Made by a program: the position numbers and the translations under genes. Below the pieces are notes generated by a model. It was given only the letters and a program-made list of their open reading frames with translations. It did not search any database and was not told the origin of the DNA. DNA of 64,000 nucleotides from Paratractidigestivibacter faecalis (lineage in GTDB: Bacteria; Actinomycetota; Coriobacteriia; Coriobacteriales; Atopobiaceae): NCBI RefSeq assembly GCF_003416765.1, contig NZ_QSNG01000001.1, positions 1,266,742-1,330,741 on the forward strand. Reading direction: 5' to 3'. Shown piece by piece: positions 25,681 to 53,428 of the stretch (its first letter is position 1; every line of letters begins with the position of its first letter).

Positions 25681-25844
25681 TTGAGCCACGTATTGCGGGT
25701 TTTGGCACGGCTTGGCGCGCCGGGTGCCGCCTTGAGCCACAAAAAGCGGGGTTTGGCACGCCAAACCGTGCCAAACCCCGCAATCCGTGGCTCACCAGCA
25801 AGAAATGCCCTTCTCGCCTGCCAAACCCCACAATCTGTGGCGCA
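25681..25844. repeat. Four-unit '2+2' repeat cluster (GAGCCAC...GGGGTTTGGCACG)
   Basis: Two units in one orientation (from 25681 and 25732, ~51-bp period) are followed by two in the opposite orientation (ending near 25794 and 25844, ~50-bp period). The unit is close to TGAGCCAC-N5-GCGGGGTTTGGCACG. The inner pair makes a long hairpin centred near 25763. This cluster fills most of the gap between the feo promoter and the Cys-rich gene. Confidence 0.8.
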
Positions 25845-33798: not shown

Positions 33799-33924
33799 GG
33801 GTGTCTTCCGTCCTTCTCGCCAGCTGATGGTATGGGTGGGGCGCATGGTGCGGCCACTCTGTGCAAAGCAGGTGTTCCGCCCGGCTGACCTGGTCTTTGA
33901 CCCCACACTCGCGCACCGGGGCCT

Positions 33925-34140
33925 TCGCCGTGGGCGCCGCGGCGCCCTTGACTTGCAACCCTCTCGCCCGCGGGACCGTATGTCCCTTGAGTATTACGGA
34001 CGGTGCGACTTACTTCTAGGACGAACCATGATCGTCCGGGCGCGCACGCCCGGGCTTACGTGGATCCCTTTGGCCTCGTCTACCTTGGACTGGGGACGGA
34101 CTGATGCCGCCCCGCAACCACAGACCCAGGCGGAACCTCC
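33925..34140 (-). ncRNA. Candidate structured RNA, possibly the raiA motif
   Basis: The 33799-34195 gap on the minus strand is about 400 bp without a gene but with many pairing segments: CTGGGGA/TCCCCAG, CCGCC/GGCGG, CCGGGCG/CGCCCGG, GGACGA/TCGTCC and GGGCGC/GCGCCC. A TATACT -10-like box lies at 34143-34148. It sits downstream of comFC and upstream of hpf/raiA. The published raiA RNA motif of Firmicutes and Actinobacteria is found in this neighbourhood and has a similar length. Without a covariance search the identity remains an inference. Confidence 0.45.
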
Positions 34141-36816: not shown

Positions 36817-37058
36817 TCGAGTTCCTCTCGTCTCTTCCGCCCCGTGTCGGTGCGGGCGGATTCCCAGCAGACGGCGACGAGGCGTAGACTGCGCAGCGTC
36901 GCACGTAATTCGCAACTCTACCACGCGCCCCGCCCTCCCACGTCGGGAAGGGCCGCGGGAAAGCAGACGTTAACGTAGGGACGAGGTGCTACGCGGCGCG
37001 CTCTTCTCGCCAGGTGCTAGGCTGGGGACGCACGAAGGAGCACCGAGGGGAGTTACCC

Positions 37059-50620: not shown

Positions 50621-51457
50621 CTACATTGCGGAGCCGAACCACTTGACCTCGAGGCTCTCGATGGTGCCGTCGTCCTTGAGGGCGGCGAGCGCCTCGTTGA
50701 TGGCGGAGGTGAGGCCGGCGTTGGACTTGGAGACCACGATGCCGTACTGCTCGCCAGTCGGGATCTCGATGACCACATGACAGTCGGTGAAGGAGTTGTT
50801 GCAGAGGTACTTCATGACGGGCAGGTCAGCGGAGGCGGCGGCGTAGATGCCGGTGGAGACGCCGGTCACGGCCTGGACGGGGTCGTCCAGGGAGACGATG
50901 GTGGCCTTGGGCAGGTTCTCCTGGGCCCAGGCCTCACCGGTGGTGCCGGACTGGCAGGCGATCTTCACGCCATCGGCGTTCAAGGCCTCGGCCGTGGTCT
51001 TGTCGGAGTCGGCCTTGACGACGACGCCCTGGTTGGAGTCGATGTAGGGGTCGGTGAAGTCGATCTCCTGCTTGCGCTCGTCGGTGATGGTGAAGTTGGA
51101 GACGCCGCAGTCAGCCTTGCCGCCCTGCTTGATGAGCGGGATGATGCTGTCGAACTTCATGGCCGGCAGGTACTCGCAGGTGAGGCCCATCTTTGCCGCG
51201 ACGGCGTCCATGAGATCGACCTCAAAGCCCACGGCGGTGGTGCCATCCATGTAGTCGAACGGCGGATTGGCCAGGTCAGAGGCAACGATGATCTTGCCGT
51301 CCTGAACCAGGGTGTAGCTGGCGGCGTTTGCGGAGTCGGTGCTGGCGGCAGCACCTGCACCAGAGTTGCCGCCGCAGCCTGCGAGCACGGCTGCGCCAGC
51401 CGCAGCTCCAAGGCCAAGGATGAAGTTGCAGCGGTCAAGCGTCTTGTTGAGGTTCAT
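50621..51457 (-). CDS. Amino-acid-binding lipoprotein (SBP family 3), paralogue 2
   Basis: The 278-residue protein has a lipoprotein signal (FILGLGAAAGAAVLAGCGG) and the same binding fold as its neighbour (IIVASDLANPPFDYMDGT, GFEVDLMDAVAAKMGLTCEYLPAMKFD, SNFTITDERKQEIDFTDPYIDSN, PTGEQYGIVVSKSN). It lacks the twin arginines of paralogue 1. Two receptors for one permease suggest a broadened substrate range. It is the first gene of the transporter operon; ATG 51457 has AAGGGAA upstream. Confidence 0.92.
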   Translation of the reverse strand: MNLNKTLDRCNFILGLGAAAGAAVLAGCGGNSGAGAAASTDSANAASYTLVQDGKIIVASDLANPPFDYMDGTTAVGFEVDLMDAVAAKMGLTCEYLPAMKFDSIIPLIKQGGKADCGVSNFTITDERKQEIDFTDPYIDSNQGVVVKADSDKTTAEALNADGVKIACQSGTTGEAWAQENLPKATIVSLDDPVQAVTGVSTGIYAAASADLPVMKYLCNNSFTDCHVVIEIPTGEQYGIVVSKSNAGLTSAINEALAALKDDGTIESLEVKWFGSAM

Positions 51458-51784: not shown

Positions 51785-52007
51785 TGCACAGAACTGCCCT
51801 TCGTGTGAGTGATTTCCAAAAAGTTGTGCAGAAGTGCGCTTCGTGCGAGTGGCTTTCCGGCCAATTTGGCCCAATCGGCGCCGGTCGCGTGAAGAAACCC
51901 CAGTTAGCAAATGGCCGATACTCGCGAGGGCCCAAAAACAGGCTCACACGAAGGTTACTTCTGCACAGAGTTTTCCAAATCGCTCACACCAAGGTGACTT
52001 CTGCGCA
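51785..52007. repeat. Four-unit '2+2' repeat cluster (TGTGCAGAAGT...TTCGTGTGAG)
   Basis: Two units in one orientation (51785 and 51825, exact 40-bp period) face two in the other (complement starts at 51967 and 52007, also 40 bp apart), separated by about 75 bp. The unit is near TGTGCAGAAGT-N3-CTTCGTGTGAG followed by YGATTT. The cluster fills the second half of the 630-bp gap between glutamine-synthetase-like and binding-protein genes. The first half (51458-51780) is AT-richer, with nothing recognised. Confidence 0.82.
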
Positions 52008-52087
52008 AATACGCAAGGGCGGCACCTCGGCAGACCAGCCGGGGCGCCGCCCTCGTGGTTCTCAGGCCCGATTACGGGCGCGCGGGC

Positions 52088-53428
52088 CTAGAAGCCGCCG
52101 TAGTAGCGCTTGCGCTCCCAGTCAGTGACCGCGGTGCAGTAGTCGTTCCACTCGTGCTTCTTCTCCTGCACCAGGTAGTCAAAGATGTGGTCGCCCAGGA
52201 CCTCGCGCATGAGCTCGGACTCCTCGAAGTTCTGGATGGCCTCACCCAGGGTGCGCGGCAGACGCCTGATGCCCTTGGCCTCGAGCTCCTTCTGGCTGAG
52301 GAGGAAGGTGTCGCGCGCGGACTCCTCGGGCAGGGGCAGCTCCTCCTCGATGCCCTTGAGACCGGCGGCGATGGTGGCGGCCAGCGCCAGGTACGGGTTG
52401 GCGGTGGGGTCGGGGCTGCGCAGCTCGATGCGGGTGGAGACGTGCTTGCCCGGCTTGTGGGCCGGGATGCGCACCAGGGCCGAGCGGTTCTTGCGGCCCC
52501 ACGTGGCGTAGTTGGGGACCTCGCCCGTGGAGATAAAGCGCTTGTAGGAGTTGACGGTGGGGTTGGTCACCAGCGTGAACTCCGGCGCGTACTTGAGGAT
52601 GCCGGCCACGTAGTGCTGGGCCAGGTCGGAGAGGTGCGCCACATGGTAGTCCTTGGGGGCCCAGAAGAGGTTCTCGCCCTCGTGGCTGAAGAGGGACTGG
52701 TACAGGAACATGGCGCTGCCCGGCTGGCCCGCAACGGGCTTGGGCATGAAGGAGGCGTACATGCCCTGCTGGGCGGCCAGCTGCTTGATGACCAGGCGCG
52801 CGGTCACGATGTTGTCGGCGCAGCTCACGGCCTCGGTGAAGCGCAGCTCGACGCCGTTTTGGGACGGGCCCGCGGCGTGGTAGGAGTACTGCACCGGGAT
52901 GGACATCTTCTCGAGCATCAGCGTGGTCTGGCGACGCAGGTCGTTTGCGTTGTCCATGGGCGTGAGGTCAAAGTAGCCCGCATCGTCCTTGGGTCTGAGC
53001 TCGTGCTGGCTGTCGGAGTAGAAGTACTCGATCTTGGGTCCCACGTTGGGGATGTAGCCCATCTTGTCTGCCTTGGTGAAGACCTTGAGCAGGCAGTTGC
53101 GCGGGTCTCCGTCAAACGGCTCGCGGGAGGGCGTGTAGACGTCGCAGAAGACGCGCGCCACACCGGACTCGGTCGGGCGCCACGGCAGAAGCGTAAAGGT
53201 GTCGGGGTCCGGGAAAGCCAGCATGTCGGACTCCTCCAGCGACACGAAGCCGTCGATGGAGGAGCCGTCAAAGCCGATGCCCTCCTCAAAGGCCTCTTCG
53301 AGCTCCTCCGGGGAGATGGCAAAGGACTTGAGGTTGCCCAGGACGTCGGTGAACCAAAGGCGGACAAAGCGGATGTCTCGCTCCTCGACGGTGCGAAGAA
53401 CGAAGTCGATGTCCTTCTCGCTGCTCAT
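52088..53428 (-). CDS. Glutamine-synthetase type I homologue lacking most metal ligands
   Basis: The 446-residue protein aligns end to end with GlnA: IGFDGSSIDGF, YFDLTPMD, FMPKPVAGQPGSAM, TNPTVNSYKRF and RSPDPTANPYLALA. However, GPExEFF has become GPKIEYF (Lys132), HHEVAPGQHEID has become YHAAGPSQNGVEL (Ala185, Gly192) and the GSGMH histidine is Phe241. Four of the six glutamates/histidines that hold the two catalytic metals in glutamine synthetase are therefore gone; only E134 and E335 remain. It may be a regulatory or differently active relative rather than a true synthetase. A nitrogen-type site lies upstream (53491-53506). Confidence 0.85.
   Translation of the reverse strand: MSSEKDIDFVLRTVEERDIRFVRLWFTDVLGNLKSFAISPEELEEAFEEGIGFDGSSIDGFVSLEESDMLAFPDPDTFTLLPWRPTESGVARVFCDVYTPSREPFDGDPRNCLLKVFTKADKMGYIPNVGPKIEYFYSDSQHELRPKDDAGYFDLTPMDNANDLRRQTTLMLEKMSIPVQYSYHAAGPSQNGVELRFTEAVSCADNIVTARLVIKQLAAQQGMYASFMPKPVAGQPGSAMFLYQSLFSHEGENLFWAPKDYHVAHLSDLAQHYVAGILKYAPEFTLVTNPTVNSYKRFISTGEVPNYATWGRKNRSALVRIPAHKPGKHVSTRIELRSPDPTANPYLALAATIAAGLKGIEEELPLPEESARDTFLLSQKELEAKGIRRLPRTLGEAIQNFEESELMREVLGDHIFDYLVQEKKHEWNDYCTAVTDWERKRYYGGF

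Follow-up and report, generated by a model that had tools for sequence, protein, structure and literature searches.

Mirrored two-plus-two repeat arrays with a helically phased core in Paratractidigestivibacter faecalis and its relatives, candidate sites for a folded nucleoprotein complex

The window (the whole 64,000-nucleotide stretch of DNA that was analysed) carries a repeat array that is one of 25 in its genome and has counterparts of the same layout, built from other sequences, in related species and genera. On balance, these arrays are probably dispersed, vertically inherited chromosomal assembly sites for a putative folded nucleoprotein complex. A putative sequence-specific protein would bind four polar, bipartite units, two in tandem on each arm, and a second contact would be made by a putative core-binding factor at a central core motif. 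The intervening DNA would bend, and the rotational register of both arms and the core would be fixed. About 25 such sites, scattered in intergenic DNA, would be passed on vertically, while the unit sequence would drift in concert with the co-evolving putative binding protein. The arrays look like docking sites because their parts are spaced in whole helical turns and their places are kept across related species, and polar tandem units that are mirrored around a phased core and drift only in concert point to a multi-subunit DNA-folding complex. From patterns in the DNA alone, we infer protein binding to the arrays, folding of the DNA by protein, and a role in chromosome organisation as opposed to the control of neighbouring genes.

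An earlier note on this DNA had described two tandem copies facing two inverted copies with an exact 40-bp period. That layout stands, as positions 51785-52007 hold four units of about 25 bp, with a step of exactly 40 bp within each pair (Table 1). The unit it gave, TGTGCAGAAGT...TTCGTGTGAG, was also right; what it overlooked was the 93-bp centre with its conserved core, whose distance is 51 bp to the left arm and 42 bp to the right one. When up to three mismatches are allowed, the unit pattern has just these four matches in the 64-kb window, compared to 0 expected from dinucleotide shuffles. The order of the surrounding features is glnA, then a G+C-rich hairpin, and then the array. A terminator-like hairpin was considered as a general neighbour of the arrays and rejected, being seen outside some arrays only.

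Table 1. Features of the window, in window coordinates
Feature	Position	Strand	Remarks
Unit 1 (outer left)	51785-51809	+	TGCACAGAACTGCCCTTCGTGTGAG
Unit 2 (inner left)	51825-51849	+	TGTGCAGAAGTGCGCTTCGTGCGAG; starts 40 bp after unit 1
Spacer separating the inner units	51850-51942		93 bp, one of the observed length classes
Core motif in the spacer	51892-51905	+	AAGAAACCCCAGTT; CAG at 51901-51903
Unit 3 (inner right)	51943-51967	-	TGTGCAGAAGTAACCTTCGTGTGAG
Unit 4 (outer right)	51983-52007	-	TGCGCAGAAGTCACCTTGGTGTGAG; 40 bp from unit 3
G+C-rich hairpin	52013-52056	-	Adjoins unit 4 on the outside; probably the glnA terminator
glnA, glutamine synthetase	52088-53428	-	3' end 80 bp from the array
ABC-type solute-binding protein gene	50621-51457	-	Start 327 bp beyond the array
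Second 2+2 repeat cluster	25682-25844		28-bp units, 50/51-bp period, 6-nt inner gap, no core
raiA RNA	33876-34134	-	Rfam
aspS RNA	36823-36902	-	Rfam

A genome-wide search, which had been proposed as a check, found 84 unit matches, compared to 0 for a reversed-pattern control. These group into 25 clusters, all with the 2+2 layout (two of them, L045 and L053, have one decayed unit each). The logo built from 50 outer and 50 inner units reads TGYGCAGAAGTNNCCTTSGTGYGAGYNNTTTY and has a sharp outer edge. The unit is polar and bipartite, made up of TGYGCAGAA plus CCTTSGTGYGAG, and pairing within the unit is not kept, as variation at positions 9 and 17 is not matched by their partners, which are fixed. 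The arrays are mostly intergenic, and many of them sit just past the 3' ends of genes. A crude ORF caller places 7 between convergent genes, 14 between co-directional genes, and 4 between divergent ones, and 4 of the 25 overlap the ends of ORF calls. Housekeeping genes of diverse kinds adjoin them, for instance ligA, a dnaX-like gene, a UvrD-type helicase gene, dnaK, argG, and glnA, and since these have no common theme, no regulon is visible. Nucleoid-occlusion sites of the Noc/SlmA type would be expected to be missing around the terminus; here, the largest array-free gap includes the expected terminus in two genomes, with moderate significance only (G000, p=0.007; G111, p=0.08). Given the dispersion, the absence of a regulon, and this gap in two genomes, chromosome organisation would be a first guess at the cellular role. 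Genes for DUF1275 proteins are found beside two of the 25 arrays (L044:4309-4935 and L048:4345-5031). On contig C1 of G000, arrays also occur in near pairs about 6-14 kb apart, a few of them with a clear likeness (L044/L045 and L046/L047), as if copied locally (1837-1870, 1550-1560, and 1604-1611 kb).

The spacing of the parts follows the DNA helix. Spacers between inner units measure 92-93, 102-104, 113, 123-125, 134, or 143 bp, and in the window's genome their lengths fit a lattice of about 10.25 bp (R=0.97, n=25). The two 143-bp spacers (L180 and L184) belong to elements with only three recognised units, in which the inner right unit may be an outer one and the spacer would then be 103 bp. 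The core motif, G-C-R-A-A-A-N-C-S-CAG-K-T, could be placed in 67 of the 67 spacers studied, and the C and G of its CAG are kept in 67 of 67. Its distance to one arm is 40-41, 50-51, or 60-62 bp (once 91 bp) and to the other arm 41-42, 52-53, 63, or 73 bp (once 92 bp), the values of 91 and 92 deriving from the three-unit cases L180 and L184; the best-fit periods of these distances are 10.1-10.4 bp. The core was placed by an iterated profile whose starting anchors were accepted solely at such left distances, and the left distances therefore carry some selection. Spacer lengths and an unfiltered listing give the same helical steps as the filtered distances. A one-sided step of 10 bp can even be seen between orthologues, with 51+42 bp at L204 and L208 and 51+52 bp at L192, in spacers that align poorly there. 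The counts per spacing class are not independent, because the elements share descent; so many distance classes on one lattice are nevertheless hard to explain without a rotational constraint. Protein-binding arrays, paired small RNAs, and remnants of a transposing unit had been the three guesses of the earlier note, and the first is the best supported, the core-arm distances falling in helical steps.

The arrays also keep their places. In the Olsenella genomes, 12 of the 14 loci of G113 match loci of G111, and all 10 loci of G107 match loci of G113, with flanking DNA at about 70-94% identity. Across nine orthologous triples from these three genomes, the half-sites are 91% and 96% identical and the core motif 84%, compared to 63% for the unit centre and 58% for the linkers, and linker length is 17 nt in 54 of 54 linkers. 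Two loci are common to the window's genome and Olsenella, at ligA (L032) and at a SpoU methylase gene (L042). The glnA array is not positionally equivalent; the Olsenella array is on the 5' side of glnA, unlike the one in the window.

The ligA locus illustrates how the units change. In eight species of the genus Olsenella, a 2+2 array lies about 110 bp upstream of ligA, and its units end in GTGTGATG, GTGATGAA, GTGATGGA, or GTGTAGCG. Overall agreement between these units is 79% within one array and 64% between species; for the 3' 8 nt, the corresponding identities are 70% and 34%. For several of these species, a single orientation serves to align the spacers, with a similar core, which suggests that the units changed in place. 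Other species have, at this site, a similar core flanked by different arms, or have nothing there. Upstream of ligA in G109 and G106 (L274 and L273, respectively), the two tandem sites of each arm differ from one another, and the core between the arms is of the same kind (CCTGCGGAAAC).

Beyond these loci, the layout recurs with other unit sequences. The unit of the window (up to three mismatches) has no match in 139 other genomes of the family, and its exact pattern has none among named genomes. An arm profile does pick up diverged relatives elsewhere in the family, in other genera, and several of these face each other in pairs at a distance of about 180 bp; among 395 genomes of the order, its matches at E 0.001 or better fall in four genera of the family only. 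An architecture scan of 309 kb from a genome of the same genus (G057) revealed arrays whose unit is TGCAAGGTTTTGGCCTTCGTGCGACG and whose core is CCCAGTTGAG. A variant unit, TGCAAAACNNNCNCTCGTGTGAT, is present in the Olsenella genomes G107, G111, and G113, again 2+2 with a 40-bp period. Among named genomes, the exact Olsenella variant pattern matches Olsenella uli An820 and an uncultured Olsenella; it also has isolated single matches in various unrelated genomes, apparently by chance. The suggestion in the earlier note of a class of elements defined by architecture is borne out by this recurrence in other species and genera. The absence elsewhere and the want of conservation that it had named as grounds against the idea did not occur, with conservation compared between species, not strains. 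At several loci of G041 (L140), there are longer arrays, in which many tandem units like CAGAATGCGCCTTTTCGTGAG face many inverted ones; these are maybe an expanded form of the 2+2 array.

One could go further and propose that the Olsenella family has an undescribed system for chromosome organisation, or for nucleoid occlusion or segregation, in which a fast-evolving DNA-binding protein and a core-binding factor would fold about 25 of these scattered, phased 2+2 sites and the sequence recognised in about 100 units would shift in concert during species divergence. This wider proposal is offered tentatively, as a possibility and not as the expected outcome. No binding protein for the array units was found, which counts against the nucleoprotein reading. 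A ParB paralogue besides ParB, of the Noc type, was sought, and none is common to all genomes tested: G113 has one ParB match only, G000 a second just over the cut-off (29 bits), and G111 a second at 84 bits. A literature search, with most subscription papers outside its scope, found no description of such arrays. If the nucleoprotein reading is true, the arrays would be a kind of bacterial chromosomal element characterised by its geometry and not by its sequence, and served by a putative trans-acting protein. The co-evolving pairs of protein and site would form a natural series, and the folding or marking of chromosomes in Coriobacteria would become open to tests.

Parts of this design are familiar from other systems. 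In E. coli, the BIME and RIB (RIP) elements are inverted REPs around an IHF site, and gyrase as well as IHF binds to elements of the REP/BIME/RIB group. Like BIME and RIB elements, the arrays are repeated (25 copies), dispersed, and extragenic, often near gene 3' ends, with inverted arms around a central site; the BIME/RIB central site is for an architectural protein, whereas the protein at the array core is putative. Unlike the palindromic REPs, the array units are polar, each arm holds a tandem pair with an exact 40-bp period, the arm-core distances run in helical steps, and from species to species the unit sequence shifts in a concerted way. Rotational register matters in the plasmid P1 parS (ParB boxes around IHF), lambda attP (arm and core sites), and the Gal repressosome. 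The arrays resemble these in having arm sites plus a centre in rotational register, but they are present as 25 dispersed chromosomal copies, unlike these single plasmid, phage, or operon sites. Protein-binding roles have been described for E. coli BIMEs (PMC2817692).

The alternative that survives best, though it appears unlikely, is that the arrays are persistent, slowly copying, non-autonomous mobile elements of a REPIN-like kind; a transposase would bind two sites per end and synapse the ends over the short spacer, and the helical steps would reflect synapsis. Element boundaries are sharp in pairwise matches, unit families differ between genera, and the outer ends of the arrays read TG...CA, the type also found at IS21-family ends. 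Copies within 10 kb share little but the element, and the near pairs L044/L045 (83% similar) and L046/L047 (80%) have so little in common beyond the element ends that discrete copying in the past is suggested; such copying may have been rare. REPIN populations, which consist of inverted short units in intergenic places, are described as lasting millions of years with long vertical persistence (PMC8049555), and the array units are likewise inverted, intergenic, and vertically persistent. Unlike the 1+1 arrangement of REPINs, though, the arrays are 2+2 with a conserved core and phase, each arm is a pair of polar tandem units and not a single palindromic REP, and the Y1/RAYT genes (1-2 Y1_Tnp genes per genome) are flanked by an array unit at 0 of 6 loci. 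The Y1_Tnp copy of G057 is flanked by another repeat family.

IS21-family ends offer another parallel, having two IstA sites per end and a tetramer that joins both ends (PMC10122671). The arrays share the two repeats at each end, but a search for IstB in the genome gave no match over the cut-off, and the conserved core, the orthologous positions, and the lack of target duplications are unlike IS21. As for the duplication looked for in a MITE, none of at least 5 bp was found at any of the 25 arrays, and shorter flanking matches are rare. No autonomous copy with these arms was found in the sampled DNA (arms up to 8 kb apart), and the long-term orthologous positions with units changing in place also argue against mobility. 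Remnants of a transposing unit, as earlier suggested, are thus unsupported as stated, given the missing target duplications and the conserved positions. Even under the mobile-element reading, the arrays would form a persistent element family, moved by a putative mobiliser. Two insertion sequences of the IS3 type are found at distances of 80-450 bp from five arrays (L031, L053, L037, L038, and L054), with their own ends outside the arrays; perhaps such elements favour intergenic places of this kind, and the loci, fetched around arrays, are a biased sample.

The remaining alternatives are weaker. A recombination site or invertible switch, in which a recombinase works on fimS- or attP-like arms and core, is improbable. 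An arm, a core, and a second arm in helical register do resemble integrase attachment sites, and the ligA spacer is inverted between G111 and G113 (alignment score 45.6 inverted vs 6.5), so the array arms can recombine. However, orientation is kept in 28 of 31 orthologous comparisons, which makes a switch unlikely; the ligA locus is the only clear inversion among the 31 pairs, and the other two comparisons both come from one weakly aligned locus. There are no array matches in viral contigs, and a viral origin of the arrays was likewise rejected. Slightly less probable still is that the arrays are operators of a regulon, at which a regulator would loop the DNA and control adjacent promoters. 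Control by tandem operators and phased loops is known, as in Gal-type systems, and in several species the ligA site is about 110 bp upstream of the gene, but the 7 of 25 arrays between convergent genes, the many just past gene 3' ends, and the lack of a common theme among neighbours speak against it. A transcribed long RNA hairpin, acting as a bidirectional terminator or small RNA, is very improbable, for although the window copy folds with a z of -6.7, as any inverted repeat would, the left and right linkers of one element resemble each other no more than those of different elements do (likeness 0.43 and 0.40, respectively; 728 of 5000 permutations as good), so arm base pairing is not maintained, the array matches no Rfam family over the gathering score, and the core-arm distances follow the DNA helix. 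The paired small RNAs of the earlier note, lacking linker covariation and an Rfam family, find no support. The arrays L051 and L052 have identical linkers.

Kinship had also been proposed between the array and the second cluster, at 25.7 kb of the window. The 2+2 order is indeed common to both, but the geometry differs in the inner gap, the period, and the absence of a core (Table 1). Units like those of this cluster occur at about 436, 620, 1661, and 1668 kb of the window's genome. It is probably a hairpin-type repeat, of another kind than the array at 51785-52007, and its likeness is to the hairpin-type repeats seen in G057, among which one family lies on both sides of a RAYT gene. In that genome (L300), the repeat TGACCGTTTTGGGGACGTTGGTTGCAG flanks a Y1/RAYT transposase gene at about 970-1010 and 2140-2205. 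The same repeat forms nested hairpin arrays with a 35-bp period in L104, and it looks like a REPIN family of Coriobacteria.
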